64,000 bases of DNA, from positions 1,426,001-1,490,000 of the forward strand of contig JAMSLZ010000002.1 in the NCBI GenBank assembly GCA_026027325.1, given 5' to 3'. The DNA comes from Actinomucor elegans (taxonomy: Eukaryota > Mucoromycota > Mucoromycetes > Mucorales > Mucoraceae). Below are positions 1,712 to 60,125 of the stretch, in pieces; position 1 is the first letter of the stretch; the number at the start of each line of letters is the position of its first letter. Under the pieces are notes generated by a model. That model saw only the letters and a program-made list of their open reading frames with translations, searched no databases and was not told where the DNA came from. The position numbers and the translations under genes are program-made.

Positions 1712-1719
1712 AAAATTGA
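1712..1719 (+). promoter_or_regulatory. AAAATTGA box, IS-a transposase
   Basis: AAAATTGAATTT, 44 bp before the ATG at 1764. Matches the Mimivirus-type early promoter word. Confidence 0.6.
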
Positions 1720-1763
1720 ATTTTTTTATAGTAATAAAATTATGTTCAAAATATATTATAAAA

Positions 1764-2625
1764 ATGTTAGTAGAGCCATATAAAAAATTAAAAGAAATAT
1801 TTGATGACGATAGAAAGGCTTTGTTATACTTAATAAATAATGACTATGTGAATGGATATAAAAATTGTAGTAATTGTGGAAAAGATATGACTTTAAATTT
1901 AAATAAAAATTATACGTATGTAGAAATTATAAATGTAGAAAAACTATATCACCATTAAATGGTACAATTTTTAATAAAATGAAATTACCAATAAACATAC
2001 AATTACATTTATTACATTTGTTTCTTGGTAAAGTCACCGGAACTTATATTTCATCAGCATTAAATATTGATAAAAATACAGTTGTAAAATATAAAAAAAT
2101 ATTTAGAAAATATATAAAAAATAAACAATTAATTACACCAGATAAAAAAATAGGAGGAAAAGATAAAATAGTAGAAATGGATGAAAGTAAAATTGCTAAA
2201 AGAAAATACCATAAAGGTAGGAAAATTGATGGTGCTTGGATTATTGGAGGTATTGAAAGAAGTAATGATAATAAAGATAAAAATTATTTATGCTACCTAT
2301 AAAACATAGAAATAGTATAAATATAGATTATATTGTTAATAAATATATAAATGAAGGAACAACAATATATACTGACTGCTGGAAAGGATATAATAATTTA
2401 AATAATATTGGATATAATCATAAAACTGTAAACCATTCTAAGCATTTTGTAGATCCTATAACTAAAGTTCATACACAATCAATTGAAGCTACTTGGGGAG
2501 CATTTAAAAGAAATTTAATGCCTATACATAGAAATAAAAAGAACATAATGTTACATATAAAAGAATATCAATGGAGAAGAAATAATAAAAATAAAAACAT
2601 TTGGATGGAATTTTTAAAAGATTAA
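1764..2625 (+). pseudogene. IS1595-like (ISXO2 domain) transposase, frameshifted
   Basis: Homologous along its length to the intact 293-residue protein at 20766. It keeps an N-terminal zinc ribbon (first CxxC; second cysteine pair shifted out of frame) and the catalytic domain: D in the VEMDESK motif, D in TDCWKGY, E in IEATWG. Two frame breaks are visible, both one A short in A-runs (near 1910 and near 2284). The sister copy at 50728 has the correct run at the second site but a different lesion at the first, so the two decayed independently or one carries read errors. Confidence 0.88.
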
Positions 2626-2643
2626 AATTTATTAAAATAAAAA

Positions 2644-2651
2644 AAAATTGA
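2644..2651 (+). promoter_or_regulatory. AAAATTGA box, IS-a second ORF
   Basis: AAAATTGAATTTGGG, 42 bp before the ATG at 2694 and just after the transposase stop. Confidence 0.6.
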
Positions 2652-2693
2652 ATTTGGGCATAAAAATAAATAAATTAATTGATATATATTATC

Positions 2694-2840
2694 ATGTCCG
2701 AAAATAATCCGTTTTTGAATAAAAAGTTTATAAAAGATTTGAAATGTTCATTTATACCACAACAAATTTTTAAAAATAAAAAATATAATTTTGATATAAT
2801 AGATATAAATTTTAAATTAAAAAAAATGATGTTGTTTTAA
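2694..2840 (+). CDS. Small passenger ORF of IS-a (unknown, 48 aa)
   Basis: Starts MSENNPFLNKKF, Lys/Asn/Ile-rich, no family recognised. The coding pattern continues in the next frame to a stop at 2953 (about 86 codons in total) after an A-run, but the sister copy at 51663 has the same break, so it is inherited and not a read error. Its own AAAATTGA box supports it being a gene. The following 600 bp to the element end hold only short ORFs without support. Confidence 0.45.
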   Translation: MSENNPFLNKKFIKDLKCSFIPQQIFKNKKYNFDIIDINFKLKKMMLF

Positions 2841-3599
2841 TCACCATGAAATTAATTAATGGAAAAAAATATGAATATGCATACATATTAAAGACTAATA
2901 ATATAACAGAAAATACAATTAATGAAAATGATATGATAATAGATAATGATTAAATTAAAACATATATATATGAGAAATGTTTTACTGTATATGTTATACG
3001 TATTTTACAAGGTTGTTAATAATTACATAATTTGTTTTCTAACCATATTTATTTTAATATTTTATTTCTTATTTATTACACTTTTAAAGAATATACATTT
3101 ATACCATATTTTACAAACTTATTTATATTACAAAAATTAACATTATTTAAAAATTTTCTATTAATTACAATGTTACCTTTTTATTACTTTTATTACTACT
3201 TTTCAATTATATAAATATTTTAAAATCTACATAAAATTTATTTAGTTTGAAACATTTCTCTATATAATGTCCTTTATATGACAATAAACTGTTGGAGGTG
3301 GATGGAATAAAAAAATAAGGATCATTATCAAAATAATGTACAGAAATATTAAATATAAATGTTTTACATTTATTTTTAATTATTTCTAAAAAGTAAATAT
3401 AAAAAAGACGAAAAAAATAAAATCACTCAGATTTTAATTTGAATTTTTTAATATTTATGTTTTTGAGATTTAAATAAAAGTTGTAAAACAACATTTATTA
3501 AATCTGTACATTATATTTTGACCTATCCCAAAATAAATATCAAAAATAATTACCATATTTAGTATATGAGAGTTATAATCATATCACACCGACAATATG

Positions 3600-4393
3600 A
3601 TAAAAGTAACTAAACGACGAATATATGAGTCATTATCGTGCACATCAAATAATAAACTATTAGTAAACTAACCTTCCACAAAACATATCCATCCATTGAT
3701 CAAAAATATATAGCTATTTTTTTCTTTAATAAAAGAAAACCATTAGATTATCAAAACCTTTGATATGTTCATTTGTGACATAATATTACATACCTGTTGT
3801 CAAATTCGCTCAAGTTTTTGGGTTATAGTAGCCGACATTTGTAGTTTACATGACAATAGCAATTAAACACAAAATGCAATGAGACGTCAGTTCTATACAT
3901 AAAAAGAAAGCAACAATGAGTAATTCAGCGATTAATGAATTAGAATAAAAAACATACCAAAACTAAGTAAATACAGTTCCTATCGAAGAAGAAAGCAAGT
4001 TAGAAAGCTATAATAATCAGCATCCTTAAACATACAAGCATTATCTTGAGTAGATATATCAAAAGAAGATAGGAATATTGAGTCTAGGAAGCCATGGGTA
4101 CAAAAAGAAAAGTTCTTCAAAAGACAGAATGAAGAAAAACTAGTACTGAAAAAAAAAAAGAGAAGAAAAAGTTTGTCATTAGAAACGGTTCAAGTTTTAT
4201 AGAATATTAGATTTGAAAAGTAGGGAGCCATTGAACCTACACATCGTAAAAAGTGGTTTATACTGGAAAAACGAAACAAGATAACAGGGTGATGCCGCTT
4301 CCAATGTTCTATAGAAATAATGAGTACTTTTGTTTAAGACAAGAAAGAAAAATGGAAAAAAAACTTTTTTTTTTATTCTCAATTAAAAAGGAC
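3600..4393. other. Non-coding CACTA interior
   Basis: Lies 3' of the minus-strand second gene. I see only short chance ORFs and an A-rich run near 4150. Confidence 0.5.
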
Positions 4394-9541: not shown

Positions 9542-9546
9542 TATTC

Positions 9547-10329: not shown

Positions 10330-10333
10330 TTGA

Positions 10334-12236: not shown

Positions 12237-12457
12237 GAAGAACATTTAGTATTACAGAAATATGTTCAAAATAGTACAATATATAAAAAAATTAGGAAAT
12301 AATAGATTTTTTTGAATACAAATAATAATATAAATAAATTTTATTCTAAAATAGAACAAGTAACCAACATTTTATTTATGGATAAAAAGGCAACATTATA
12401 TTTATGCCTTGATTTTTTAGGAAAGTTAAAAATATTAAGTAGTTGTAAATGTTTATC
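12237..12457 (+). repeat. ChP-1 left direct terminal repeat
   Basis: 221 bp, same orientation and nearly identical to 14682-14902. It starts and ends with the element's inverted-repeat words, so the repeat alone resembles a MITE. Confidence 0.9.
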
Positions 12458-12612
12458 TTGTCCTATTTTTAGACTTCCATTGCGTTTAATCACATTGAGA
12501 AATCTAAAAACAACTTCCTTGGCATCTAATTCTTGGCATGATATTTTGGAAAATATAAAAGTATCTATAATATTTGAGAATTATTTTTAAAATAACATCA
12601 ATATTATATTTA

Positions 12613-12981
12613 ATGGAAAAAATCTATTATTATGCTGTGGTTTTAACTCTAAATCCTGAAAAAAAAGATGTCAAGAATAAATCATCCGAAATATTAAACA
12701 AGAAAATACTGCAATGGGTTGGAAATATAAAAAATATTGATAAAATTTTATATAGTGGTCCTTTCTATGATGTTGGTGAAAACAATACAAATATCCATGC
12801 CAATTTAGTGATAAAAACAATTTTAGATGATAACGAAAAAGTTAGAAATGAATATTTCAAATCCTGGTGTTTAAGAAAAGGATATGTTAGTATTAAAGAA
12901 ATTTATAATTTTAAATCATGGTTAGATTATGCAAAAAGAAATCATAAGTTCTTGGAAAATATAGAAAATATTAAAAATTGA
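12613..12981 (+). CDS. Unknown AT-rich ORF of ChP-1 (122 aa)
   Basis: Starts MEKIYYYAVVLTLNPEKK. Not assigned. Layout weakly recalls a small HUH replication initiator: an LTLN strand near the start, an IHANLVI strand in the middle and WLDYAKRN near the end. Only one histidine is in the middle motif and the tyrosine motif is off-pattern, so this is speculative. It precedes the transposase gene by 90 bp; no AAAATTGA box was seen before it. A shorter ORF before it (12312-12590) lies partly in the terminal repeat and is doubtful. Confidence 0.4.
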   Translation: MEKIYYYAVVLTLNPEKKDVKNKSSEILNKKILQWVGNIKNIDKILYSGPFYDVGENNTNIHANLVIKTILDDNEKVRNEYFKSWCLRKGYVSIKEIYNFKSWLDYAKRNHKFLENIENIKN

Positions 12982-13025
12982 ATTTTCATATATAAATAAA
13001 AGTTTATTAAATATAGAAAATATTA

Positions 13026-13033
13026 AAAATTGA
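13026..13033 (+). promoter_or_regulatory. AAAATTGA box, ChP-1 transposase
   Basis: AAAATTGAATTTC, 38 bp before the ATG at 13072. A second copy at 12974-12981 overlaps the stop of the previous ORF. Confidence 0.6.
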
Positions 13034-13071
13034 ATTTCTCTTTATATAAAAATACATCATTTTATTTGTTT

Positions 13072-14670
13072 ATGAACACTCATATAGACTTATTAATTGA
13101 AAATGAATACAGAAATATTTACAATAGGTATTGGAAATTTATGAAAAATGAATATATATATAAAGTTGAATTGAAATATCATAGATCTAAAATAACGAGT
13201 ATACCAAATATTGATAGAATTAAAAAAAATATATATATTAAATTAGGAAGTATTGCTCCATTTGTATTTTTGACAGATTTATGTAACAATATAAAACTAC
13301 CAGGTCCATATATAACAGCAGATAAAGTATTGATATTATTAGAACATTTATTAAATGGAAAATCTATAAATGAAATGGAAATGTATATTCCATCTACTAG
13401 TTTTTATAAATTATATCAATTAATAAGTTTGTGTAACATCAGATGGATCAGATATATCTGATTTTATCTGATTGTAACAAACATGAATTGTTTTAATGAA
13501 GAAAATATAAAAATATAAATTTGGAAACGTTTTTGCGTTACCAAAATTATTAATTTTAATTATTTTCAAAATGACAAACAATCATTATATATAAATAATT
13601 ATGATTTATTGGAAAAATGGATAAATAATAAATTAGAAAAATGTTTTTCTACACATACATTGAGATTACTTTGTGCTAAGAAATTTAATCCAATGATGTT
13701 AGATAATGTAACATTACTAATTGATGGTCACCATAATCGTATAACATATCAAGATATTAATCTAGATAAAAAAGAGTTATTCTCGTATAAATTAAAAAGA
13801 AATGGATTAAATACACAATTTATTATAGATATTAATAGAATATGTGTTTATATATCTGATTCCTTACCTTGTAGAAATAATACTGATGATAAAATGCTTT
13901 TAGACATAAATATCAATAAGTTTTATAATGAAATAGATTGTATATGTTTTGATGGATTATATGAAAACACAGTAAAAGAATTTATAGAAAAATTTAGTAA
14001 TATTGGATTTAATATATCCTTGAAAAATTTTTGCTATCCTATAAAAAAAGATAAAGGAGTTGAATTAACCATAGATGAAAAAAAATTCAATGAAGAATTA
14101 GGTGGATTAAGGTCAAAAATAGAAAAATATTTTGCAGAATTAGGTAGTATTTTTAAAAGATTTAGTGGACAAAATAAGATTAGAATAACAGATAATAAGA
14201 CATATAATATACAGCTAAAATTAGCAATAGTATTACTGAACATAAAATATTTTACAGAGTTATTTGGAATTGAAGAAAATGCCCATTACAACAAATGGCT
14301 AAATGATAATTTTGATTATTATTATAAAAATAATATTGAAATGAATAAAGAAGTAACATTAAAAACACAATATAAAATAGAAAATATCGTTGATATAAAA
14401 TCATTACAAAATCAATTTTTAAATAATTTAAATATAAATGAAGTGAATATAGATATTATGGATCAAATGGAGGAAGATATCACTAGTAATAATGATCAAA
14501 ATATATATGAAATACAATATATAATTAAACACAAAAAAGTAAAGAACTTATATGAATATTTTGTAAAATGGAAAAAGTATGGTAAAGAACATAATTCATG
14601 GGTAAAAGAAAAAGATTTTACATCACATGATACTATTTTGAATTATTGGAAATCAATAGAAAATAATTAA
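13072..14670 (+). pseudogene. Chromodomain PIF/Harbinger-like transposase, interrupted (ChP-1)
   Basis: The N-terminal part (13072-13435) and the catalytic part (about 13555-14670) match the intact 502-residue protein at 36447. About 120 bp of unrelated sequence with stops separates them, starting near GTTTGTGTAACATCAG. Catalytic signs are D in LIDGHHNR and the R..IE..F block near 14110; the second acid lies in FDGLYE where relatives have DGGY, so a key glycine is changed. A C-terminal chromodomain (IYEIQYII...YFVKWKKYGKEHNSW) is complete. Likely inactive. Confidence 0.85.
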
Positions 14671-14681
14671 TCAATTAATAA

Positions 14682-14902
14682 GAAGAACATTTAGTATTAC
14701 AGAAATATGTTCAAAATAGTACAATATATAAAAAAATTAGGAAATAATAGATTTTTTTGAATACAAATAATAATATAAATAAATTTTATTCTAAAATAGA
14801 ACAAGTAACCAACATTTTATTTATGGATAAAAAGGCAACATTATATTTATGCCTTGATTTTTTAGGAAAGTTAAAAATATTAAGTAGTTGTAAATGTTTA
14901 TC
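14682..14902 (+). repeat. ChP-1 right direct terminal repeat
   Basis: Second copy of the 221-bp repeat; begins 11 bp after the transposase stop and ends at the target duplication. Confidence 0.9.
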
Positions 14903-15964: not shown

Positions 15965-15968
15965 AAAC

Positions 15969-20707: not shown

Positions 20708-20715
20708 AAAATTGA
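20708..20715 (+). promoter_or_regulatory. AAAATTGA box, IS-b transposase
   Basis: AAAATTGAATTTTG, 50 bp before the ATG at 20766. Confidence 0.6.
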
Positions 20716-20765
20716 ATTTTGTTTTATATTTAAAATATAACTTAAAAAGGTTTTTATAGAACTAT

Positions 20766-21647
20766 ATGTTTATAGAACCATACAAATCTTTGAAAAAAAT
20801 ATTTGATGATGAGAAGGAAGCACTATTGTATTTAATTGAAAACAACTATGTTAACCATTATGAAAAGTGTTTAAAATGTAACCATGATATTAAATTAAAT
20901 ATAAATAAAAAATTATATGTTTGCAGATTTTATAAATGTAGAAAAGCTATATCACCTTTAAAAGGTACAATATTTAATAAATTAACATTATCATTAAATA
21001 TACAATTACATATACTATATTATTTTCTTGGAAAAGTGCCATGTTCATTTACTGCATCAACATTAGGAATATCAAAGAATACTGTGTCATCTTATAATAA
21101 ATTATTTAGAAAACATTTAAAAAATAAGCAATTATTAAGTAATAGAAATATTAAAATTGGGGGTAGAAATAAAATTGTAGAAGTAGATGAAAGTAAAATA
21201 GCTAAAAGAAAATATAATAGAGGTCATAGAGTAGAAGGTGCATGGATTATTGGAGGTGTAGAAAGAAGTATGTTAAAAAATAAAATAAAAAACGAAAATA
21301 AAAAAACTTTTTTTGTCCCTATTAAAGAAAGAAATATTGATAATATAGATTTAATTATTAAAAAATATGTAAAAAAAGGAACCACAATATATACAGATTT
21401 ATGGAAAGGATACAATAATTTAAAGAATATAGGATATAAACATATGACTGTAAATCATTCCAAAAATTTTAAAGATCCAATAACAGGTGTACATACTAAT
21501 ACTATTGAAGGTACTTGGAATGGATTAAAACAGAGTATAATACCCAGACATAGAAACAAAAAAGATATATTATTGTTTTTAAAAGAATATCAATGGAGGA
21601 AAAAAAATAGGGAATATAATTTATGGAAAAAGTTTTTGACAGATTAA
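20766..21647 (+). CDS. IS1595-like (ISXO2/Merlin) transposase, 293 aa, intact
   Basis: Zinc ribbon C35-x2-C38 ... C53-x4-C58, then a helix-turn-helix-like stretch (GISKNTVSSYNKLFRK, about residues 101-116), then the ISXO2 catalytic domain with D141 (VDESK), D211 (TDLWKGY) and E248 (IEGTWN), a DDE triad. The length is usual for the family. IS1595 and the eukaryotic Merlin superfamily share this fold and make 8-9 bp duplications, as seen here. Codon use is extremely A/T-rich. ATG chosen because all family members here begin M(F/L)(I/V)E(P/S)YK. Confidence 0.92.
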   Translation: MFIEPYKSLKKIFDDEKEALLYLIENNYVNHYEKCLKCNHDIKLNINKKLYVCRFYKCRKAISPLKGTIFNKLTLSLNIQLHILYYFLGKVPCSFTASTLGISKNTVSSYNKLFRKHLKNKQLLSNRNIKIGGRNKIVEVDESKIAKRKYNRGHRVEGAWIIGGVERSMLKNKIKNENKKTFFVPIKERNIDNIDLIIKKYVKKGTTIYTDLWKGYNNLKNIGYKHMTVNHSKNFKDPITGVHTNTIEGTWNGLKQSIIPRHRNKKDILLFLKEYQWRKKNREYNLWKKFLTD

Positions 21648-22157: not shown

Positions 22158-22165
22158 AAAATTGA
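22158..22165 (+). promoter_or_regulatory. AAAATTGA box, IS-b second gene
   Basis: AAAATTGAAAAC, 21 bp before the ATG at 22187. Confidence 0.6.
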
Positions 22166-22186
22166 AAACAATTATATAGAAAAATA

Positions 22187-32199: not shown

Positions 32200-32614
32200 A
32201 ATCAGATCTGACAGATTTTCGATGGTCCAGACTGGCATTATGGAAGAATCATCATTTTTTTTGAAATACTATAAGAGAAGACATAATTAAGGAGAACATG
32301 TTTGTGCATTTAAGCATAAAAATTTAACAATTTACATAGATTTCATGAATTATATAAATATTAGGGTTAATTTTAAAATCACGTGATTGTTAAAATGCCC
32401 CTAAATTTATGAATTTCATTTTTTTCAGCTTTTTTTTAGAATACCAAGACATTTTTAGAAATCACATGATATGATAGCTATAAAACATACTAATTCATTT
32501 TACTATCATTATATGTTTAATGGATAGGGATGTATTATATTAAGAGTCTCGTATTTTATTATTAATTAAATAAAAGGATTCAAAAAATTATTTATATTAA
32601 AATATATATTGACT

Positions 32615-33199
32615 TTATTTAATATTTAATTTATTAAATATATTAATAGCATCATCATAATTTATATCCTCATCTTTTATCTCGTTATTTATTTTAATAA
32701 AACCTGTTTTAATTGTAAAATTTATATATATCTTACCATTACTAATATTTATAGATGGTGAAAATAATGATGGATAAATAGAAAAACATTTATTTTTAAT
32801 ATCATCAATACTTAAATTTTGATTATTTTCTATATTTTTAAATTTGGATATATTAGTTAATACCAAATACATAATTTTTGTATTTTCTTTTGAATTCGAT
32901 TCTATTAAAGGATTTAATAATTCTACATTCATAATTTTATTTCTTCTACAATACATATTTATTTCATTTATTAAAACATTTATAAAACTTTCAAAATCAA
33001 TATGTTCATTACTAGTAATGTCTAAATCTATCTTTATTTTATATGGTTTTTTTTCAATCCATAATTGACTATCTTCAAATGCAATCTTTGTATCAATTAT
33101 GAAATTATGACCATTATACAATACATTGTATTTGTCATCCTTAAATTTCTCTATTAAAAAAGCATTTTTATCATATTCTGTTAATGTTATTACAGGCAT
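32615..33199 (-). CDS. Unknown 194-aa protein of ChP-2
   Basis: Starts MPVITLTEYDKNAFLIEKF and is open throughout with extremely AT-rich codons. Rich in beta-prone hydrophobic strands alternating with charged residues; no catalytic motif, signal peptide or membrane segment. I recognise no family. It does not resemble the transposases. A TAAATTGA box (one base from AAAATTGA) lies 21 bp before the ATG. It is the only gene between the inverted repeats, so it is likely cargo. Confidence 0.6.
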   Translation of the reverse strand: MPVITLTEYDKNAFLIEKFKDDKYNVLYNGHNFIIDTKIAFEDSQLWIEKKPYKIKIDLDITSNEHIDFESFINVLINEINMYCRRNKIMNVELLNPLIESNSKENTKIMYLVLTNISKFKNIENNQNLSIDDIKNKCFSIYPSLFSPSINISNGKIYINFTIKTGFIKINNEIKDEDINYDDAINIFNKLNIK

Positions 33200-33220
33200 A
33201 TTTATTTTAATGTATGTTTT

Positions 33221-33228
33221 TCAATTTA
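33221..33228 (-). promoter_or_regulatory. Variant AAAATTGA box (TAAATTGA), ChP-2 gene
   Basis: On minus TAAATTGAAAAAC, 21 bp before the ATG; same spacing as the exact boxes. Confidence 0.45.
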
Positions 33229-33697
33229 TGTTAAATAAATTAAAATTGGAAATATAAGAGTAATCTAGTTTTTATACATATATTAATTGGATGACATTGT
33301 TGTTATATAGTATGTTTTATAGCTATCATATCATGTGATTTCTAAAAATGTCTTGGTATTCTAAAAAAAAGCTGAAAAAAATGAAATTCATAAATTTAGG
33401 GGCATTTTAACAATCACGTGATTTTAAAATTAACCCTAACATTTATATAATTCATGAAATCTATGTAAATTGTTAAATTTTTATGCTTAAATGCACAAAC
33501 ATGTTCTCCTTAATAAGTATTACAGTAAATTTGACTGTTATTATTATAAGGAAAATATACATGCTATTCATATACCTATGTATCTTTAAAAAATATTCGT
33601 AAAATTTATAATCATATATATATATAAAACAAAAAAAAATTACAAAATCTTTTTTATTTTTTAAGTCATGTGACATCATGATACGTATCCCTTAAGT

Positions 33698-35099
33698 TTA
33701 AAGGTTATCTAACCCAGCATGATATTCATCAATTATTTCTCTATCATTAAATGCGTCTTCCCATATCCAACTATTGTAGCTATCATCATAATTTTTCCAT
33801 TTAATAAAATATTTTGTTCTTTTTTATATTTTCTATGATTTAATATTTTTTCTATTTCATATGAATCATTTTCTATGTATTCTATATTTTCGTCAATTAT
33901 CATTTCACTTTTATTTAGCATATCATTAATAAATGAGTTTTGTTTATTTCTCATATTAATGACTCTACAATATTCAAAAGTTTCAGTAAATGCATCTTCA
34001 TTATGATTTTTGTTACTTGGATAATTAAATTTATCTTGTATCCATAATCCATAATAATCTTTAATTGGAATATTTTGAAGCTCAACAAATTTTTGGATGT
34101 TACTTAATAATAATGCCATTTTTAACTGTAAATTATATATTCTTATATTATCAATTTTAAGAACTTTATTACTATTATCAAATCTTTGGAATTTATCACC
34201 TAATCGTCCAAATTTATTTTCAATGATGCTTCTAAAACTTCCAAAAGTATTATTGAATTCAATTTCATTATCACTTAACTTAATTCCTTTTTTTTTCTAA
34301 ATGGAAATATAAAATTATCGTTATTGATTTTATCATTTCCATATTTACTACAATTCTCTAAGAAGTCTTCTATAAATAAATTATAACCTCCATCAACTGC
34401 TATACAATCATTTTCATTTAATTTATTTTCTAGTTTCATTGCTAAAAACATTTTACCATCATTATATTTTTTACATGGTAAACTATCTGATACATAAATA
34501 GCTATTTCATTAACATCAATTATTACTTGGGTTCTAAATCCTGATTTTTTAAATTTATATGAATACATATCTTTACTTTTAATTTTCAAATCTGTATAGT
34601 TAACTCTACTATCATGTCCATCCAAAAGTAAAGTAACATGCTTAAAATGCTCAGGATTAAGTCTATTAGCATAATATATTCTTAATAAAATTGTGCTAAA
34701 CATATTTTCTAATAGTTTATTACATGTTTTATGTAGCTCATTTAAGTTTACATCCCAGAAACTTTTATATATTTCATGAAATGATGAATAGGGTATGTAA
34801 TCATTCATTTCTCTTATGCTTTTACCTGTAATTAAGTGATATATTATTAGTAATCCTTTTTCAATATCTCTATATGGAGTTTTATATTTATAATTTACAA
34901 ATATATTATTTAAAAAGAAAAATATAGGTATTATGCCTAATTTGTTTTGTAATTCAACCTTAATTTCTTCAATATTTTTTACATCTTTTAGTTCTGTTCT
35001 ATGTTTATACTCATCTTCTTTTATTTTCCATTCCTCATCTAAAAAATTCCAGTAACTATGTTTTATTTTATTTAATTCTTCGTATATAAGTTTATCCAT
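33698..35099 (-). pseudogene. Chromodomain PIF/Harbinger-like transposase with two frameshifts (ChP-3)
   Basis: Starts MDKLIYEELNKIKHSYWNF. D in LLDGHDSR, D in AVDGGYN and the R..IE..F block follow the 36447 protein. Frame breaks, each consistent with one lost base in an A-run, lie near 34295 (FPFRKKK) and near 33815, in the chromodomain (KEQ-YFIKWKNYDDSYNSW). The real end is DNL-stop at 33698. Either mildly decayed or affected by homopolymer read errors; the remainder is well preserved. Confidence 0.87.
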
Positions 35100-35124
35100 T
35101 TTATGTTTTTTATATATGTTTTTT

Positions 35125-35132
35125 TCAATTTT
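35125..35132 (-). promoter_or_regulatory. AAAATTGA box, ChP-3 transposase
   Basis: On minus AAAATTGAAAAAAAC, 25 bp before the ATG at 35099. Confidence 0.6.
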
Positions 35133-35492
35133 TATTTCATTTTAGCATTTAATGATAGAGAAATAATTGATGAATATCATGCTGGGTTAGATAACCTTTA
35201 AACTTAAGGGATACGTATCATGATGTCACATGACTTAAAAAATAAAAAAGATTTTGTAATTTTTTTTTGTTTTATATATATATATGATTATAAATTTTAC
35301 GAATATTTTTTAAAGATACATAGGTATATGAATAGCATGTATATTTTCCTAAGACGATAATAAAGGAACAACAAGAAGTAATTTTTCTTTTATTTACATC
35401 CTTCACTGTCTTTTGAAGCTTACACCTATTTACTTAATTACACATTTGTTCTATATACTCAATTGATATATCTTTCAGTCTAGTATCATATT

Positions 35493-36420: not shown

Positions 36421-36428
36421 AAAATTGA
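36421..36428 (+). promoter_or_regulatory. AAAATTGA box, ChP-4 transposase
   Basis: AAAATTGAATTTG, 18 bp before the ATG at 36447. Confidence 0.6.
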
Positions 36429-36446
36429 ATTTGAATATAATATAAA

Positions 36447-37955
36447 ATGGAGCAATTAGAAATATTAAAGAAAATAGAAATACAAAAACTTATTAGTTTG
36501 AAATGGAAATTTTTAAATAATACTTATCCTTATATAGATTATAAACGATATCATAGAACAGAATTAAAAGAAATAAACTTTATTAATGATCTTAAAAATG
36601 AGCTTTATCAAAAGTTAGGTGCTATTCCTATATTTATATTTTTAACTGATTTCTTCTACAAATTAAATATACCAGGTCCATTTAAAAATATAGAGAAAGG
36701 GTTATTATTATTATATCAACTATTAATAGGTAAATCTATAAATGCTATGTCTTCTTATGTTAAATATACTACATATCATGATATGTATAAAACTTTTTAT
36801 GTTGATTATAGAAAAGAGCTAAATGAATGGGTAAACAATTTACTTCTTAATGATTATTTTTCAAATAACACTTTACGATTAATTTATGCCAAATTAAAAA
36901 ATCCTAAATTACTAAAACATATTACCTGTTATATGGATGGATATGATTCAAGAATAGTCTATCAAGACATTCATTTTGATAAAAATAGGTTATATTCTTA
37001 TAAATTTAAAAATTCTGGTTTAAGAACACAATTTATTTGTGACATTAATGACATTATTATTTATATATCGCAACCAAAACCATGTAGCGATTATACAGAT
37101 GGTAAAATGTTTGAGGAAATTAATTTAAATAAATGTTTACATCAAACAGATTGTATGTTAATTGATGGTGGGTATACATTACATGTTAATAAAGTTATAG
37201 AGAAGAATAATCTTAATGGTGGATGTTTATCTCTGAACAATTTTTGTTATCCAAACAGAAAACCTAAAAATGAAGTATTATCACCTGAACAGATAAATTT
37301 TAATAAACAAATTGGTAGTATGAGGTCAGATATTGAAACATTTTTTTTAAAATACACCACTTTATTTCATAGATTTAATAAAGAAAAAGCAGTAAGGATA
37401 ACAGAAAATAGTATTTATTATATTCAATTTAAATTATGTTCAGTATTATATAATATAAAGAAAGCATGTGAAATCTATGATGTAAAAGAAGATAGAAATT
37501 ATATGTTTAAATATTGGATTGAAGAAAATTTTGATTATATGAATGTAAATGATAATAATGATGAAAATGCAATAAATAAACATTTATTTGCAGATGAATA
37601 TAAGCAACATTATATAACAGAACAGTTTAAATTCCAGGAAAGTTACCTTATAAATATAATACAAAACATGAGTATAAATGATAATACTGATAGTATAGAA
37701 ATAAAAAATACAGATAATAATAATGTTAATAGCAATGATGATGTTGATATAATAGATAATGATGTATACATGGAAGATGAATCTAATATTTATGAAATTG
37801 ATTATATTTTAAGCCATAAAATTGTTAAGAAAAAAAATACATATTTGGTAAAATGGAAAAATTTTGATGAAACCCATAATTCGTGGGTAAAAGAAAAGGA
37901 TTTCCAAGACATAGAGTGCATTAAAAACTATTGGTATAGTATAGAGGATTTATAA
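36447..37955 (+). CDS. PIF/Harbinger-like DDE transposase with C-terminal chromodomain, 502 aa, intact
   Basis: An N-terminal helical domain (residues 1-130) is followed by an IS5/PIF-type catalytic domain: D164 (MDGYDSR), D240 (LIDGGYT) and E297 in MRSDIETFF...FHRF. An acidic Asn/Asp-rich linker (about 395-445) leads to a chromodomain at about 449-492 (IYEIDYILSHK...YLVKWKNFDETHNSW) with the aromatic positions expected for reading methyl-lysine histone tails. The chromodomain fusion is familiar in Gypsy integrases but unusual in PIF enzymes. It may direct insertion to heterochromatin; all copies here lie in transposon-packed DNA. Codons are strongly A/T-biased. Confidence 0.85.
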   Translation: MEQLEILKKIEIQKLISLKWKFLNNTYPYIDYKRYHRTELKEINFINDLKNELYQKLGAIPIFIFLTDFFYKLNIPGPFKNIEKGLLLLYQLLIGKSINAMSSYVKYTTYHDMYKTFYVDYRKELNEWVNNLLLNDYFSNNTLRLIYAKLKNPKLLKHITCYMDGYDSRIVYQDIHFDKNRLYSYKFKNSGLRTQFICDINDIIIYISQPKPCSDYTDGKMFEEINLNKCLHQTDCMLIDGGYTLHVNKVIEKNNLNGGCLSLNNFCYPNRKPKNEVLSPEQINFNKQIGSMRSDIETFFLKYTTLFHRFNKEKAVRITENSIYYIQFKLCSVLYNIKKACEIYDVKEDRNYMFKYWIEENFDYMNVNDNNDENAINKHLFADEYKQHYITEQFKFQESYLINIIQNMSINDNTDSIEIKNTDNNNVNSNDDVDIIDNDVYMEDESNIYEIDYILSHKIVKKKNTYLVKWKNFDETHNSWVKEKDFQDIECIKNYWYSIEDL

Positions 37956-45595: not shown

Positions 45596-46075
45596 CAGTG
45601 GGTGAAAAAACTGTTCACGTGTTTAATGATTTCGGATAAATCATTCCAAAACTCAAGAACTACTCGACATATAATTATGTAAAAATATCCATAAAAAACT
45701 TTGACTAAATATGCAACTATGATAAAAAATATGCATCGATTACTTTATTGGTTGTTGTGTAATGTACTAAACAAATAAGGTACTACACGTGAACAATTTT
45801 TTCCCTATTAAACTAATATCTAGTTGGTCCACCTTTCGCATCCAAAACGGCTTTAATTCGAGCTGGCATACTTTCAATGTACCTCCTACATTCCTCCTCA
45901 GTAAATGTATTCCATTCTTCGTCATACCGTTTCCATGAATTATGTACACCGGTTGGCTTCGTGTCGTATGCACTTAGCTTAAGCTTAAGGTGATGCCACA
46001 GGTGTTCAATTGGATTCATATCGGGGCTTTGAGGTGGCCAATCGTCAACCCAGTTCACATTATGTTCAGAGAACC
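45596..46075 (-). mobile_element. Tc1-b copy 2, 3' fragment
   Basis: Starts CAGTGGGTGAAAAAACTG after TA; contains the transposase C-terminus (MNPIEHLWHHLKLK to GGPTRY, 45813-46058). Cut at the junction with IS-c. Its other end is probably 49741-49993. Confidence 0.8.
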
Positions 46076-46611
46076 AATATTCGTATGAACATTAGTTTCA
46101 GGGTCTTTAAAATGCTTCTTATGATTTACAGTTTTATGCTTGTATCCAATATTTTTTAAATCATTATAACCTTTCCAGCAATCTGTATATATAGTTGTTC
46201 CTTTTTTAACATACTTTTTAATAATTTCATTTATATTTTCAATATTTCGTTCTTCTATAGGTACTAAAAACATTTTCTTATTTTCATTTTTAATTTTATT
46301 TTTTAATCTACTTCTTTGTATCCCTCCAATAACCCAGACACCCTCTACTTTATGTCCTTTATTATATTTTCTTTTAGCTATTTTAGACTCATCTACTTCA
46401 ACAATTTCATTTCTTCCTCCAATTTTTCTATTTTTATTATATATTTGTTTATCTTTTAAATAATTTCTAAATAATTTATTATATTTTGTAATCGTTTTTC
46501 TATCTATTTCTAAACTTGATGATAAAATAGTTGAAGGGGTCTTTTTTAAAAATTCATACAGTAAATGTATCTGTATGTTTATTGGTAGCTTCATCTTACT
46601 ACAGTGGGTGA

Positions 46612-48235: not shown

Positions 48236-48517
48236 TAAAAATTGTTCCTTTAAGTGGTGAAATAGCTTTTCTACATTTATAATTTTTACACTTATATAAT
48301 TTTTCTTTAAGATATAATTTCATATCATAGTTACATTTTTTACATTTATCATATTTATTTATATAGTTGTTTTCTATTAAATATAAGATTGAATTCTCTT
48401 TATTGTCAAAGACATGCTTTAATTTTCTATAAGGCTCTATAAAAACATGTCTTATATTTTATATTTTTACAGGTTTATTAAATTAATTTAACTTTATATT
48501 TTATTTTTAATAAAAAT

Positions 48518-48525
48518 TCAATTTT
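48518..48525 (-). promoter_or_regulatory. AAAATTGA box, IS-c
   Basis: On minus AAAATTGAATTTTT, about 67 bp before the former ATG at 48450. Confidence 0.5.
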
Positions 48526-49573: not shown

Positions 49574-49740
49574 TTTAATGACATTATCTAGGTCAATTCA
49601 TAATTTCATATCCATATATTTCATAATTTTTTTTAAATAAACAATAATTCAATTTTTAGAATTTTAGTATTCATAAATAATTTCTAAAAAACATTTTTGT
49701 TCTATAAAAAGTTGAAATAACTACAATACAAGAACAGACT
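49574..49740. other. AT-rich spacer with an AAAATTGA word
   Basis: A minus-strand AAAATTGAATTA near 49650 has no ORF after it. Probably more IS-type debris. Confidence 0.3.
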
Positions 49741-50339: not shown

Positions 50340-50612
50340 ACTCTATGTGTATTCAAGGCACTGGCGATGGTAACGAACTGTGTATCCTGGGTATATCCCG
50401 TGGTTCAAGTCGTATGGCGTGGAAATAAATCTGGGTTCGTCAACCATAAAGGTATCCTCAACGACTGGTGTGGTTTCTCTGCCCTGTTATACTACATGTT
50501 TACCTGGTTAAGTAAGCAAGGTGGATAACAAAGCAGCCAGGCTGACAAGGCTGGATGAAAACTTGAAGGAGCTGAAGCAAGTTTACCATGTCAAAGTATC
50601 GCAGAAGTACAC
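50340..50612 (+). pseudogene. Gypsy-3 pol fragment, before IS-d
   Basis: Protease-RT linker of a Gypsy-2 relative: MCIQGTGDGNELCILG matches MCIQDGGDDKLCLLG of Gypsy-2; after a frame break it continues PWFKSYGVEINL and VSQKYT. Interrupted at AAGTACAC by IS-d and resumed at 63391. Confidence 0.8.
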
Positions 50613-50675
50613 ATTTAAATATGAAGATAAGTCTCATAAAATTTCAAACTCAATTAAAAAAAATGTTAGAAAAAA

Positions 50676-50683
50676 AAAATTGA
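50676..50683 (+). promoter_or_regulatory. AAAATTGA box, IS-d transposase
   Basis: AAAATTGAATTT, 44 bp before the ATG at 50728. Confidence 0.6.
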
Positions 50684-50727
50684 ATTTTTTTATAGTAATA
50701 AAATTATGTTCAAAATATATTATAAAA

Positions 50728-51594
50728 ATGTTAGTAGAGCCATATAAAAAATTAAAAGAAATATTTGATGACGATAGAAAGGCTTTGTTATACTTAATAA
50801 ATAATGACTATGTGAATGGATATAAAAATTGTAGCAGTAATTGTGGAAAAGATATGACTTTAAATTTAAATAAAAAATTATAAGTATGTAGAAATTATAA
50901 ATGTAGAAAAACTATATCACCATTAAATGGTACAATTTTTAATAAAATGAAATTACCAATAAACATACAATTACATTTATTACATTTGTTTCTTGGTAAA
51001 GTCACCGGAACTTATATTTCATCAGCATTAAATATTGATAAAAATACAGTTGTAAAATATAAAAAAATATTTAGAAAATATATAAAAAATAAACAATTAA
51101 TTATACCAGATAAAAAAATAGGAGGAAAAGATAAAATAGTAGAAATGGATGAAAGTAAAATTGCTAAAAGAAAATACCATAAAGGTAGGAAAATTGATGG
51201 TGCTTGGATTATTGGAGGTATTGAAAGAAGTAATGATAATAAAGATAAAAAATTATTTATGCTACCTATAAAACATAGAAATAGTATAAATATAGATTAT
51301 ATTGTTAGTAAATATATAAATGAAGGAACAACAATATATACTGACTGCTGGAAAGGATATAATAATTTAAATAATATTGGATATAATCATAAAACTGTAA
51401 ACCATTCTAAGCATTTTGTAGATCCTATAACTAAAGTTCATACACAATCAATTGAAGCTACTTGGGGAGCATTTAAAAGAAATTTAATGCCTATACATAG
51501 AAATAAAAAGAACATAATGTTACATATAAAAGAATATCAATGGAGAAGAAATAATAAAAATAAAAACATTTGGATGGAATTTTTAAAAGATTAA
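50728..51594 (+). pseudogene. IS1595-like transposase of IS-d (nonsense mutation)
   Basis: Sister of the IS-a gene. A TAA replaces the Tyr codon in the KKLYVCR motif (at 50881), and three extra bases in the first zinc pair give CSSNC instead of CSNC. From 50947 onward the frame is open to the end with D, D and E present. Inactive unless read through. Confidence 0.88.
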
Positions 51595-51612
51595 AATTTA
51601 TTAAAATAAAAA

Positions 51613-51620
51613 AAAATTGA
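51613..51620 (+). promoter_or_regulatory. AAAATTGA box, IS-d second ORF
   Basis: AAAATTGAATTTGGG, 42 bp before the ATG at 51663. Confidence 0.55.
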
Positions 51621-51662
51621 ATTTGGGTATAAAAATAAATAAATTAATTGATATATATTATC

Positions 51663-51809
51663 ATGTCCGAAAATAATCCGTTTTTGAATAAAAAGTTTAT
51701 AAAAGATTTGAAATGTTCATTTATACCACAACAAATTTTTAAAAATAAAAAATATAATTTTGATATAATAGATATAAATTTTAAATTAAAAAAAATGATG
51801 TTGTTTTAA
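51663..51809 (+). CDS. Small passenger ORF of IS-d (48 aa)
   Basis: Same as the IS-a ORF, including the shared stop after the A-run. Unknown function. Confidence 0.42.
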   Translation: MSENNPFLNKKFIKDLKCSFIPQQIFKNKKYNFDIIDINFKLKKMMLF

Positions 51810-52274
51810 TCACTATGAAATTAATTAATGGAAAAAAATATGAATATGCATACATATTAAAGACTAATAATATAACAGAAAATACAATTAATGAAAATGA
51901 TATGATAATAGATAATGATTAAATTAAAACATATATATATGAGAAATGTTTTACTGTATATGTTATACGTATTTTACAAGGTTGTTAATAATTACATAAT
52001 TTGTTTTCTAACCATATTTATTTTAATATTTTATTTCTTATTTATTACACTTTTAAAGAATATACATTTATACCATATTTTATAATGTAGATACGAATTC
52101 ATGAAGTATTTAATATATTACACGAGAGCGAAAAGTGATCTTTGTTGTTTTGTTGTTATCTATCTTTTATTGTAAATTCGAACTTGTACTACGTATATAA
52201 ATTGAAATTTTTTCTTATTCTAAATACTTCATCTTCTTTTGTGAGATGTAGAGTAAATAGTAGTAATAAGGGAA

Positions 52275-52395: not shown

Positions 52396-52411
52396 TAACT
52401 TTAGTGAAATC

Positions 52412-55440: not shown

Positions 55441-55502
55441 TTGGAATCCAAGTAATGAAGACCAGGAGGAAGAAAATTGTGCAAGTCTTCCTCCTACCTG
55501 AT

Positions 55503-56300: not shown

Positions 56301-57090
56301 ATGAATAGGCTACGACGGTGTAAATTCCAGGAGCGTAGTAAAGTCGAACAAAAAGAAGATGAAGTATTTAGAATAAGAAAAAATTTCAATTTATATACGT
56401 AGTACAAGTTCGAATTTACAATAAAAGATAGATAACAACAAAACAACAAAGATCACCAAGCTCGAAGTGTAATACAAACTTATTTATATTACAAAAATTA
56501 ACATTATTTAAAAATTTTCTATTAATTACAATGTTACCTTTTTATTACTTTTATTACTACTTTTCAATTATATAAATATTTTAAAATCTACATAAAATTT
56601 ATTTAGTTTGAAACATTTCTCTATATAATGTCCTTTATATGACAATAAACTGTTGGAGGTGGATGGAATAAAAAAATAAGGATCATTATCAAAATAATGT
56701 ACAGAAATATTAAATATAAATGTTTTACATTTATTTTTAATTATTTCTAAAAAGTAAATATAAAAAAGACGAAAAAAATAAAATCACTCAGATTTTAATT
56801 TGAATTTTTTAATATTTATGTTTTTGAGATTTAAATAAAAGTTGTAAAACAACATTTATTAATTCTAGGTCGAGAAAATTCTCTTAAGAATTGTTTGAGA
56901 CCATCAGAACAAAATAGGAAATATTATTATGCTAGAATCTTCTTGAACCTTTATTTCATAGCGATTATTAAAGATATAAAAGAAAGCGAAAATGAGAAAA
57001 AATAAAGGTCAATCTTCTTTTTCGCTCGGTCATTACCAGCTTATAATTATCAGTACACCTACAGAACACTAAGCTTTTCATTTACCCTCA

Positions 57091-57914
57091 ATGTCCTCTA
57101 TGGAAGAGCAATTCCACATGATGCAGCAACAAATTGCTGCCCTCCAGGAACAACTTAACGGTGCCTCTACTCCTATGCAGTCAGCGGATGACACTGCTAC
57201 ATTACCTCTTCACTCAATGGGAGTCCGCCCTCACTATGACTGGTCTCCTTCCGAGGCTTTGACCGAATTGATGAACTTAGATACTCCCTTACATACTTCG
57301 AATTTACTTTCGGACTCGGAACGCAAGACAATCATTGAATCTTACCCTCCTATGGCGCATCTGGAATACAGAGCCCCAGCTACTATCCCCACTGCTGAAA
57401 GACTTATGAACAAGGGTCAAAAGTACGAAGATAACTCCCTCAAAAACCTTCAATATCTTTTGTCAGCTACTTTCCGGCCATTAGATATTCTGAGTCATAA
57501 ACTCGTAACCTCTGAAACGGGCAACCCAAATTTAGAGCGCTATTGCACTATGCTAAGGGATGTTCGCCGACTTTTGCTACATGTATGCTCGACCATGACT
57601 CAAGCCCGTAACAACATTGCTCTCCGCGCGGTCAATCCATCTTTCTCTATGAAAACTAATCAAGAGACCAACTATACTCTTCCCTTAGATGAATTTCATA
57701 ATTCTTTGATTCAACAAACAGCAGCAAGAAAAGCTACTCGTGAAGCAACTCTCAATCGCCGTCAACGACGCTTTACTTCAGCAAACTCCGGTCATGCTAG
57801 TTCCTTCTCGAACGTTTCGGATCCGCAGTTTTTTCGGTCAGGTCCACCCTCTCAGCAGGGTGGTTACAACAACAGCACTATCAACAACAGCAACTTCAAC
57901 AACAACAGCAACTT

Positions 57915-57980
<66 letters not shown>

Positions 57981-58065
57981 TTTCAACAACAACCGCAACT
58001 TCAGCACCAGCAACAATACTCGGCACAACAACAACAAGAAGAACACCAATCCTTTTCGTCAGTAA
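57091..58065 (+). CDS. DIRS-2 gag-like ORF (324 aa)
   Basis: Starts MSSMEEQFHMMQQQIAALQ (short coiled coil), has a helical core, then an Asn/Ser-rich tail encoded by a CAA/CAG microsatellite (about 57870-58010). In the -1 frame the same repeat encodes poly-Gln at the start of the RT ORF, so gag and RT overlap. The first ATG after the terminal arm is chosen. Confidence 0.8.
57870..58010 (+). repeat. CAA/CAG microsatellite
   Basis: Trinucleotide run read as Asn/Ser in gag and as Gln in the overlapping RT frame; likely length-variable. Confidence 0.85.
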
Positions 58066-58224
58066 CCTTAACAACTATAACAGAATCAATAGTCGATCCA
58101 GTAGGAGGACGGCTCAGCAAGTATTTTACAAAATGGACAGAAATTTCCAACAACTCGTTTGTCAACACAACAATCAAGTACGGCTACAACAGGGTCATTA
58201 TGCATCTAACTCTCATATAATTTT

Positions 58225-59163
58225 TTATACCATTTCTTCAATTAATTTTATAAAACTATCAATTGAAGTCTTCTTTATACTATTAAATGTATATAAAGGA
58301 AAAACTAAATTACTATTAATTATTTTTTCATTACTACATATTTTGAAACTTATTTCTAAATTTTTTAAAAACCTTGATTTGTTTTTATCATACATTTCAT
58401 AAATATTATCACTATTTATTTGATTATTTTTAATTTTTGTATATAAATCATTAAACAATTTTAATGTATTTCTATTATTAACAATTACATCATTAAGCAA
58501 ATTAACATCATCTTTACATTTAAGTAAATTCAAATTGTTCTTTTTTAATCTATTTATTACCTTTAAGTTTTCTTCATTATTATTTATTTTAATATAATCT
58601 TTTCTTTGTTTTTTATTATTATTACTGTTTGTAGTGGTACTATAATTACTTGTATTACTGGTTATAGAACTATTATCATCATATTCTTCAATATCATTAC
58701 CGCTGCTAATACTATTATTTTCCTCATATAACTCATCTTCTATATCTTCTAAATCACTTTCTAATATTTCATCTTCATAGTTTTTATTTTTATTATTATT
58801 ACTTTCTAAAAATTCATCATATATATCTTCTTCGATTACTTCTTTATCTATTTTATTATTTTGTTCATGATATTCTATAACTTTAAAATGATTTAAACAA
58901 TATAAATTATTATTAACTAACCAATTACCAACTTCATTGCATTTATCATTATAGCATTTTTTACTTTCTAATTTTAATGTATTTCTATTAATATTATTTA
59001 ATTGATTTTTTAATTCTTCATTTATTTTTTTATAATTATTATTTTCATCTGTTAATATTTTATTATTTTTTGTTAAAAATGAAATCTTTTTAATGAGATA
59101 ATAATAATCCTTCTTGTTAATTTTAATGTATTTTAATTTTTTATTTGGTCTTACTCTACTCAT
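58225..59163 (-). CDS. Passenger protein of IS-e (312 aa, unknown)
   Basis: Starts MSRVRPNKKLKYIKINKKDYYYL. A predicted coiled coil (about residues 20-65), then a Cys/His cluster CYNDKCNEVGNWLVNNNLYCLNHF (C-x4-C...C-x2-H) that could bind zinc, then an acidic Asp/Glu/Asn-rich centre and a helical C-terminus. No family recognised. It starts 29 bp after the transposase stop, and its AAAATTGA box overlaps that stop, as in compact viral genomes. Unrelated by eye to the other passengers. Confidence 0.68.
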   Translation of the reverse strand: MSRVRPNKKLKYIKINKKDYYYLIKKISFLTKNNKILTDENNNYKKINEELKNQLNNINRNTLKLESKKCYNDKCNEVGNWLVNNNLYCLNHFKVIEYHEQNNKIDKEVIEEDIYDEFLESNNNKNKNYEDEILESDLEDIEDELYEENNSISSGNDIEEYDDNSSITSNTSNYSTTTNSNNNKKQRKDYIKINNNEENLKVINRLKKNNLNLLKCKDDVNLLNDVIVNNRNTLKLFNDLYTKIKNNQINSDNIYEMYDKNKSRFLKNLEISFKICSNEKIINSNLVFPLYTFNSIKKTSIDSFIKLIEEMV

Positions 59164-59184
59164 ATTTTTATTATATAATGAAAT

Positions 59185-59192
59185 TCAATTTT
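59185..59192 (-). promoter_or_regulatory. AAAATTGA box, IS-e passenger gene
   Basis: On minus TTAAAAATTGAATTTC; overlaps the transposase stop codon and lies 21 bp before the ATG at 59163. Confidence 0.62.
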
Positions 59193-60070
59193 TAATCTTT
59201 CAAAAAGTTTTTCCAAATATTATATTCTCTATTTTTTTTTCTCCATTGATATTCCCTGAGATATAGAATTATGTCTTTCTTGTTTCTATTTCTAGGTATA
59301 ATACTTTGTTTTAATCCATTCCATGTTCCTTCTATGGTATTTGTATGAATTCCTGTTATAGGATCTTTAAAATGTTTTTTATGATTTACTGTTTTATGTT
59401 TATACCCAATTTTATTTAAATCATTATAACCTTTCCAACAATCTGTGTATATAGTTGTACCTTTCTTAATATACTTACTAATTATTTGATTAATATTCTC
59501 TATATTTCTTTCTTCAATAGGTTCTAAAAATACTTTTTTATTTTCATTTGTAACCTTATTCTTTAATCTACTTCTTTGTATTCCACCAATAACCCAAGCA
59601 CCTTCAACTTTATGTCCCTTGTTATATTTTCTTTTTGCAATTTTAGTTTCATCAATTTCTACAATTTCATTTCTTCCACCTATTTTATTACTTGGTTTAA
59701 TAAGTTGTTTATTCTTAATGTATTTTCTGAAAATTTTATTATATCTACTTACTGTATTTTTATCAATTTGTAAACTTGAGGATATAAAAGATGAGGGTGC
59801 TTTTCCTAAAAATAAATACAATATGTGTAACTGGATATTTAACGGTAATCTTAATTTACTAAATATTGTTCCTTTCAATGGTGATATAGCTTTTCTACAT
59901 TTATAATATTTACAAACATACAATTTTTTTTTCAAATTTAATTTCATATCATGTCCACATTCATTACATTTTTCAATCTTATTCACATAATTATTTTTAA
60001 TTAAATATTCCAATGCATCATCTTCATTATCGAATATATGCTTCAAACTTTTATAAGATTCTATAAACAT
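59192..60070 (-). CDS. IS1595-like (ISXO2/Merlin) transposase, 292 aa, intact
   Basis: Same architecture as the IS-b enzyme: zinc ribbon C35/C38 and C53/C58, HTH-like QIDKNTVSRYNKIFRK, catalytic D140 (IDETK), D210 (TDCWKGY), E247 (IEGTWN). One residue shorter near 125. No lesion seen, and the terminal repeats and target copies are intact, so it could be active. Confidence 0.93.
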   Translation of the reverse strand: MFIESYKSLKHIFDNEDDALEYLIKNNYVNKIEKCNECGHDMKLNLKKKLYVCKYYKCRKAISPLKGTIFSKLRLPLNIQLHILYLFLGKAPSSFISSSLQIDKNTVSRYNKIFRKYIKNKQLIKPSNKIGGRNEIVEIDETKIAKRKYNKGHKVEGAWVIGGIQRSRLKNKVTNENKKVFLEPIEERNIENINQIISKYIKKGTTIYTDCWKGYNDLNKIGYKHKTVNHKKHFKDPITGIHTNTIEGTWNGLKQSIIPRNRNKKDIILYLREYQWRKKNREYNIWKNFLKD

Positions 60071-60117
60071 AATAGATAATAATATCTTGGGTATTTAATT
60101 TAATAAATTATGAAAAT

Positions 60118-60125
60118 TCAATTTT
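60118..60125 (-). promoter_or_regulatory. AAAATTGA box, IS-e transposase
   Basis: On minus AAAATTGAATTTTC, 47 bp before the ATG at 60070. Confidence 0.6.

Follow-up and report, generated by a model that had tools for sequence, protein, structure and literature searches.

The 64,000-nucleotide stretch of Actinomucor elegans DNA analyzed here (the window) covers positions 1426001-1490000 of its contig, in an assembly of 36.5 Mb and 27 contigs. In this transposon-rich window, AT-rich blocks with a GC of about 0.20 are interspersed with sequence of GC 0.3-0.45. The AT-rich blocks examined are elements of two unrelated superfamilies, with elements nested inside one another. They are IS1595-type elements (PF12762) and DDE_Tnp_4 transposons with a C-terminal chromodomain, for which we use the working name ChP. 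Most genes of these elements are preceded by a two-part motif that very probably acts as their core promoter: an AAAA-(T/C)-TGA box and, exactly 24 nucleotides (nt) from the box start, a run of A residues (the A-run).

Boxed genes of the window

The motif-bearing sites of the window are listed below with the elements to which they belong. Positions with a plus sign are counted from the box start. Element labels are taken from an initial annotation of this DNA, and the matching of labels to copies is tentative.

1648..3591, plus strand: IS-a, IS1595-type element with two boxed genes, transposase broken here (from blastn against copies)
1712..1738, plus strand: putative bipartite promoter of the IS-a transposase, AAAATTGAATTT, AAA at +24
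2644..2670, plus strand: putative bipartite promoter of the IS-a second gene (gene 2694-2840, 48 amino acids (aa) here, 86 aa in copy L037)
12974-13000 and 13026-13052, plus strand: two putative tandem bipartite promoters of the ChP-1 transposase (13072-13461 and 13693-14670, broken here)
12237..14902, plus strand: ChP-1 element, 221-bp direct copies at both ends (12237-12457, 14682-14902), many copies in the genome
20638..22558, plus strand: IS-b element, 1921 bp, terminal inverted repeats, 8-bp target duplication CCGTATTT
20708..20734, plus strand: putative bipartite promoter of the IS-b transposase (gene 20766-21647, 293 aa, PF12762)
22158..22184, plus strand: putative bipartite promoter of the IS-b second gene (start 22187 here, 98 aa in copy L001)
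33549..35350, minus strand: ChP-2, 206-bp inverted repeats, transposase in two pieces (34275-35099 and 33733-34119)
35106..35132, minus strand: putative bipartite promoter of the ChP-2 transposase, exact AAAATTGA at 35125-35132
36421..36447, plus strand: putative bipartite promoter of ChP-3, ATG at +26
36447..37955, plus strand: ChP-3 transposase, 502 aa, DDE_Tnp_4 and Chromo domains
48499..48525, minus strand: putative bipartite promoter of IS-c, transposase interrupted (pieces near 48236-48450 and 46055-46594)
49630-49656, minus strand: bipartite promoter-like site, full motif, no intact downstream open reading frame (ORF)
50608..52082, plus strand: IS-d, second copy of the IS-a family, putative promoters 50676-50702 and 51613-51639
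58192..60190, minus strand: IS-e element with two boxed genes
60099..60125, minus strand: putative bipartite promoter of the IS-e transposase (gene 59192-60070)
59166..59192, minus strand: putative bipartite promoter of the IS-e second gene (gene 58225-59163, 312 aa)

A box and an A-run at a fixed distance

The initial annotation had reported an octamer about 18-50 bp before the element genes, and this placement is borne out. The box, AAAATTGA or in two families AAAACTGA, stands before the ATG in 20 of the 22 AT-rich element genes examined, in the window and in intact copies elsewhere. Eighteen of these 20 genes have the exact octamer and two have AAAACTGA (fifth base T or C), at 26-60 nt from box start to ATG (18-52 nt from box end) and always within 150 nt of the start codon. 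The aligned boxes have an invariant TGA and are not TATA-like. The table of 20 genes leaves out the ChP-1 passenger gene, the cargo gene described below, the GC-rich ChP family, IS-c (whose start lies at +77), the site at 49656, the tiny second ORF of IS-86, the second gene of IS-72, and three copies in which no start codon was found (L060, L063 and L067). When orientation was listed for 23 genes, 20 carried the box pointing towards the gene and none carried it reversed. Those without the exact box were the GC-rich ChP family, the ChP-1 passenger and the 194-aa cargo gene, which has TAAATTGA. The initial annotation had attributed a variant box to ChP-2; TAAATTGA belongs to the cargo gene, and the ChP-2 transposase has the exact octamer.

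The second half of the motif is new relative to the initial annotation. In both superfamilies AAA lies exactly 24 nt from the box start, with A in 59 of the 60 cells at +24 to +26 (19/20 genes at +24, 20/20 at +25 and 20/20 at +26). The ATG is never upstream of +26, and in the 12 genes with an ATG at +33 or later all 36 cells are A, so the A-run is not an effect of start-codon context. This conservation was reached in none of 2000 shuffles, whether for all 20 genes, for either superfamily alone or for the 12 late-ATG genes. Between the box and the A-run, at about +12 to +17, there is little conservation. The window contains 14 sites with the joint pattern AAAAYTGA-N16-AAA, whereas 0.81 would be expected and none of 100 shuffles gave more than 4; of the 14 sites, 13 precede intact or broken element genes. 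The A-run is probably where transcripts start.

Because the IS transposases are similar to one another, the 20 genes are not all independent, and the 11 AT-rich ChP families carry most of the weight. With one representative per family, nine of the 11 have AAAATTGA no more than 80 bp from the ATG and the other two have AAAACTGA. In 300 shuffles, the octamer appeared in 0.5 families on average and in three at most. Tied with its one-base shift AAATTGAA, it is also the most widely shared 8-mer, and any 8-mer in the shuffles reached no more than six families. The bare count of the octamer in the window is weak evidence, because 23 exact occurrences against 15.1 expected from whole-window shuffles were equaled in 2 of 100 shuffles. 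Nine of the 23 are background or lie inside ORFs (2222, 9811, 11032, 14412, 27046, 34151, 45188, 51190 and 53372).

The box is specific to the AT-rich elements. As the initial annotation had stated for the CACTA genes, the Gypsy ORFs and the GC-rich ChP, it is missing before all 21 other window ORFs of at least 150 aa (non-element, overlapping frames included) and from the three copies read of the GC-rich ChP family (GC 0.42). An equal octamer frequency before host genes, which by the initial annotation would tell against its idea, is not seen in a sample of nine host ORFs from four 8.5-kb stretches, none of which has the box; this sample is small, and its upstream regions are not AT-matched (GC 0.29-0.39, compared with 0.07-0.22 for the boxed genes).

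A genome-wide octamer scan, proposed earlier, was run in part, with the 12-mer AAAATTGAATTT, and gave a clear excess: 409 occurrences, compared with 18 for the reversed control. We classified the first 100 of the 409 sites and 40 further stretches from the 71 ending in A or G. Of the first 100, 92 lie at IS or ChP elements, 79 of them assigned by coordinates, 11 by sequence and two (C3:264414 and C4:49769) only by their distance from partial IS matches. The remaining eight are background sites of GC 0.26-0.36 with no ORF of more than 62 codons starting within 200 bp (blastx was not run on these). The 41 sites of the second sample comprise 20 in one further ChP family, one at an IS second gene, one at C18:1995 and 19 background sites (GC 0.27-0.43) with no blastx match to element proteins and no ORF longer than 66 codons starting within 120 bp. 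No boxed host gene was recognized in either sample. The site C18:1995 (L093) is AT-rich, has no long ORF or transposase match and possibly represents another element family.

Taken together, these results support the word as a real, element-specific and orientation-specific promoter-like signal of the early type known from large DNA viruses.

Copies, relatives and passengers of the elements

The IS transposases contain the DDE_Tnp_IS1595 domain (E 1.7e-17 and 5.2e-19). An N-terminal zinc ribbon (PF12760) fell below the cut-off in IS-e (E 0.069), and its paired cysteines are conserved in the alignment. The intact IS-a copy L037 encodes a 287-aa transposase and an 86-aa second gene; a domain search of the 312-aa product of the IS-e second gene found no family above the cut-off. 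The genome has 134 matches to the IS-b transposase, with some copies counted in several pieces, and 12 are full-length at 100% identity. Eight other copies of the IS-b element are 99.8-99.95% identical to that of the window over about 1921 bp. Perfect 8-bp target duplications flank seven of nine copies examined, the window copy included (L002 differs and L007 was not scored). Transposition of these elements is thus recent and nuclear. Other IS transposases are 63-86% identical to that of IS-b. In the IS-72 family, copy L077 has lost the box present in its relative L055. Transposons of the IS1595/Merlin type are known in Mucoromycota, for instance in Rhizopus, Lichtheimia and Phycomyces (PMC8101967). 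The elements described here share with them the DDE_Tnp_IS1595 domain and the 8-bp target duplication and differ in their second boxed gene and virus-type promoters.

DDE_Tnp_4 exceeds the cut-off in ChP-1, ChP-3 and the GC-rich ChP, and the ChP-2 piece falls below it. ChP proteins have at least 86 matches in the genome and form many families, several with many identical copies. DDE_Tnp_4 transposons are presumably PIF/Harbinger-like, a group with a 3-bp TWA target duplication, and TTA stands on both flanks of ChP-2 and of the cargo element (read by eye; the ChP-1 flanks are ambiguous). In addition to the shared domain and TTA flanks, the elements described here have a C-terminal chromodomain, 206-bp inverted repeats in ChP-2 and a virus-type promoter, which set them apart.

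The boxed AT-rich families are spread over several deep branches of a tree built from 64 ChP proteins. The box is therefore either ancient and lost with a change in composition, or gained repeatedly, and both speak for function. ChP-10 falls in a clade that is otherwise GC-rich-looking, at a fork with only moderate support; for rows from outside this genome, GC-richness was judged from amino-acid make-up only. The tree contains metagenome and fungal proteins of at least 400 aa and 11 families of this genome, with ChP-12 left out. At least five of the 11 own-family rows are incomplete (ChP-5, -8, -9, -10 and -11), the branches of ChP-2 and ChP-8 are long, and several rows are unlike the others in make-up (the GC-rich ChP among others).

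In protein searches, the transposase relatives named to an organism are fungal (Mucor hiemalis, Thamnidium elegans, Circinella minor and Entomortierella), with one archaeal exception; for one transposase, relatives were judged from the 120 of 352 matches listed. Most matches in these searches lie on short contigs. The exception, P0186, comes from a Nitrososphaeraceae metagenome-assembled genome, is annotated as a DEAD/DEAH helicase and matches ChP-3 at 98% identity along 10% of the query. It is possibly fungal contamination of that assembly. A search of bacterial and archaeal genomes returned only two distant relatives (27-33% identity). Searches of five proteins each found nothing in PHROGs below E 0.03 and no defence family at E 0.01.

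Two further genes accompany the ChP elements.

12613..12981, plus strand: ChP-1 passenger ORF, 122 aa, no box
32286..33514, minus strand: cargo element, 207-bp perfect inverted repeats, one 194-aa ORF (32615-33199), variant box TAAATTGA at 33221-33228

The passenger contains the motifs VVLTLNP, NIHANLVIK and WLDYAKRNH, which we take to recall HUH replication initiators, and has relatives in L230 and L231. Its AlphaFold model (pLDDT 82) gave a structural match only at the level of the common ferredoxin-like fold. Against a viral library it matched two unnamed proteins at E 3e-4 and some Rep proteins more weakly. The passenger may be an HUH/ferredoxin-like protein. The 221-bp end unit of ChP-1 also occurs without the element body in the L036 stretch, and its arrangement on a DNA transposon resembles that of long terminal repeats. 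The cargo element has 17 genome matches, 11 of them full-length, and several lie next to ChP-2 copies, on one side or the other, as though the order of the two elements had been permuted. Its protein has one 99% match in a metagenome source and nothing else at E 0.1.

A virus-type layout and its possible reader

Large cytoplasmic DNA viruses have early promoters with the same layout as this box and A-run, and so do the related virus-like elements (VLEs) of the yeast cytoplasm. In vaccinia, the AT-rich early element of 15 nt has TGA after a fifth position that accepts any base, and transcription starts a median of 12 nt downstream of the element; in the yeast elements the corresponding distance is 11 nt, every gene starts with A, and the polymerase stutters at a TAAA initiator (PMC6211774). 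With such spacing, a start would be expected near +25/+26, the place of the A-run. All 20 boxed genes match the AAAA-N-TGA core of the poxvirus early promoter (UCE), including its free fifth base, and the A-run lies where a start site of the poxvirus type would be predicted. Unlike the poxvirus promoters, these stand on transposons of a fungal nuclear genome, with no T5NT signal and no viral polymerase found. The yeast VLEs (pGKL killer plasmids, UCS promoters) are alike in their fungal host, very AT-rich genes, one box per gene and an A-run initiator. However, their ATNTGA core is not matched, because the fourth box base is A in 20/20 genes (core AANTGA), and they are free linear plasmids whereas the elements here are transposons.

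The octamer is also the early promoter word of Mimivirus, found no more than 150 nt from the start codon in 45% of its genes (PMC5294985) and common to its virophages and transpovirons (PMC11464507). The element genes share the word and this distance, but Mimivirus has hairpins that are absent here, and the elements have the fixed A-run at +24. In Mimiviridae the position of the motif before start sites seems to differ (PMC6211774). The DNA polymerase promoter of the iridovirus IIV-6 has AAAATTGA from -19 (PMC5294985). In the literature on the octamer, giant viruses and fungal transposons, covered mostly by titles and the beginnings of abstracts, we found no description of the motif on cellular transposons.

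From this layout, adaptation of the elements to a virus-type RNA polymerase is most likely; the enzyme would come from an infecting virus or a cytoplasmic episome that is missing from the assembly. Transcripts would probably start at the A-run, and the transposase so made would act on nuclear copies. We consider promoters adapted to such a polymerase the best single reading of the data and give it an even chance of being right. As regards expression in the nucleus, 16 AT-rich ORFs contain 101 internal AATAAA compared with 103.5 expected; this lack of depletion gives no sign of selection for nuclear expression. Nuclear transcription of yeast VLE genes with a comparable AT content leads to cutting at internal poly(A) sites (PMC4431711), and with this precedent, ordinary nuclear expression of the element ORFs seems doubtful, though possible.

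Several observations weigh against adaptation to a virus-type polymerase. The identical nuclear copies with fresh 8-bp duplications mean that the transposase was made in this fungus, possibly by RNA polymerase II (Pol II), and how a cytoplasmic polymerase would express nuclear copies lacks an explanation. Close and profile searches of IMG/VR, a collection whose coverage of giant viruses is uncertain, found no relative of either transposase. The initial annotation had named a lack of viral relatives as an outcome that would tell against its idea of viral origin, and so far this is the outcome. Nor did the viral hallmark genes that it proposed to look for turn up in the assembly. Capsid, VLTF3 and protein-primed polymerase gave no match, in searches for which no positive control responded: PF04451, PF04947 and PF03175 matched nowhere, and a capsid search of 11 large viral records, intended as a positive control, was also silent, so these results are uninformative. 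D5_N (PF08706) gave no match while three controls did, and there are three RPB2-like loci only, with no fourth. If a virus-type polymerase is the reader, its source therefore probably lies outside the assembly. The capsid gene can be missing from a giant viral insertion in a fungus (PMC10640383).

Expression signals at the gene ends add to these points. Hairpins following the Mimivirus palindromic rule for gene 3' ends (PMC4402537) are absent at 14 gene ends (fold z from -1.47 to 1.27); the stems that stand out are one of 13 bp at ChP-3 (1 of 100 shuffles as long) and one of 10 bp at ChP-1 (5 of 100). The poxvirus T5NT terminator was considered as a signal and rejected, because its depletion in ORFs (z -2.5) is matched by that of A-runs, which indicates a general avoidance of homopolymer runs; T5NT lies no more than 100 nt from only 3 of 12 stops.

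The main rival, and a possible one, although we do not favor it, is that host Pol II reads the motif, with the box serving as an upstream core element at the TATA position; the AT-rich transposons would have acquired it by convergence or retained it from a shared habitat. The 24-nt spacing between box and A-run is near the -25 to -30 of TATA (PMC5294985), transposition within the nuclear genome is recent, and three RPB2-like loci are what is expected for Pol I-III. However, the invariant TGA is unlike TATA, and the box is missing from the nine host and 21 other window ORFs (a small sample with no AT matching). The 27 background 12-mer sites (GC 0.26-0.43) have no ORF longer than 66 codons close by, and the GC-rich sister ChP family does without the box.

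A stronger version of adaptation to a virus-type polymerase strikes us as rather doubtful. It holds that the elements depend on a virus: a whole guild of unrelated transposons would have abandoned the host polymerase and would respond solely to a cytoplasmic DNA virus or linear episome, through its RNA polymerase, so that bursts of transposition in the fungal nucleus would mark infections by a so far unseen DNA virus or episome of Mucoromycota. Integrated provirophages are likewise activated by a viral RNA polymerase.

The initial annotation had gone further and proposed that the elements came from, or were expressed by, a Mimivirus-like virus or its satellites and were then received by the fungus. 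Its viral-type promoter stands, in that an early-type signal of large DNA viruses is shared by two superfamilies and is not seen at the sampled host-like ORFs. A specifically Mimivirus-like origin is not supported: no viral relatives turned up in IMG/VR, the hairpins are absent, and the A-run fits the geometry of poxvirus early promoters and yeast elements. Direct descent from inhabitants of such a giant virus or of its satellites is improbable, although the octamer is identical and the elements are AT-rich and compact, mostly with one box per gene. Pattern scans of IMG/VR covered at least 159 loci with 1689 ORFs of at least 80 aa, and found the octamer before 70 and the fixed geometry before 13. 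Among the loci listed, the 28-kb L238 (IMGVR_UViG_3300030098_006116) has the highest share of boxed ORFs. It carries a PF16903 capsid and a DUF5906 protein, and in the 13.7 kb read 5 of 13 ORFs have the octamer in front; these include the DUF5906 gene but not the capsid gene. This capsid-bearing locus could be taken to favor descent from such viruses, but the A-run at +24 is found at only 1 of its 13 ORFs, so the octamer alone does not bring the geometry. The organism-named relatives, moreover, are fungal save for the one partial match noted above.

Spread of a single promoter module from one superfamily to the other within this genome, through recombination or nested insertion and without a virus, is very improbable. 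The elements are nested in one another and both superfamilies have the same geometry, but given the low conservation between box and A-run and the boxed ChP families on several deep branches, such spread would need many ancient exchanges. Chance in AT-rich DNA, with which the bare octamer count might agree, is practically ruled out by the fixed spacing, the 12-mer excess, the sharing among families and the joint pattern.

At the date of PMC10640383, no double-stranded DNA virus infecting fungi was known, and viral insertions in fungal genomes pointed to such viruses; a 1.5-Mb Asfarviridae-related insertion in Rhizophagus indicates that large DNA viruses reach fungi (PMC10640383). If the promoters of the AT-rich elements answer to a viral polymerase, they would provide a sequence signature of viruses or episomes active in this fungal group and a way to detect them. 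Infection-triggered transposition would then connect viruses with genome change in a new way. If Pol II is the reader instead, the use of a fixed two-part core promoter on AT-rich transposons and at none of the sampled host ORFs would still be an unusual expression strategy, and one that is directly testable.

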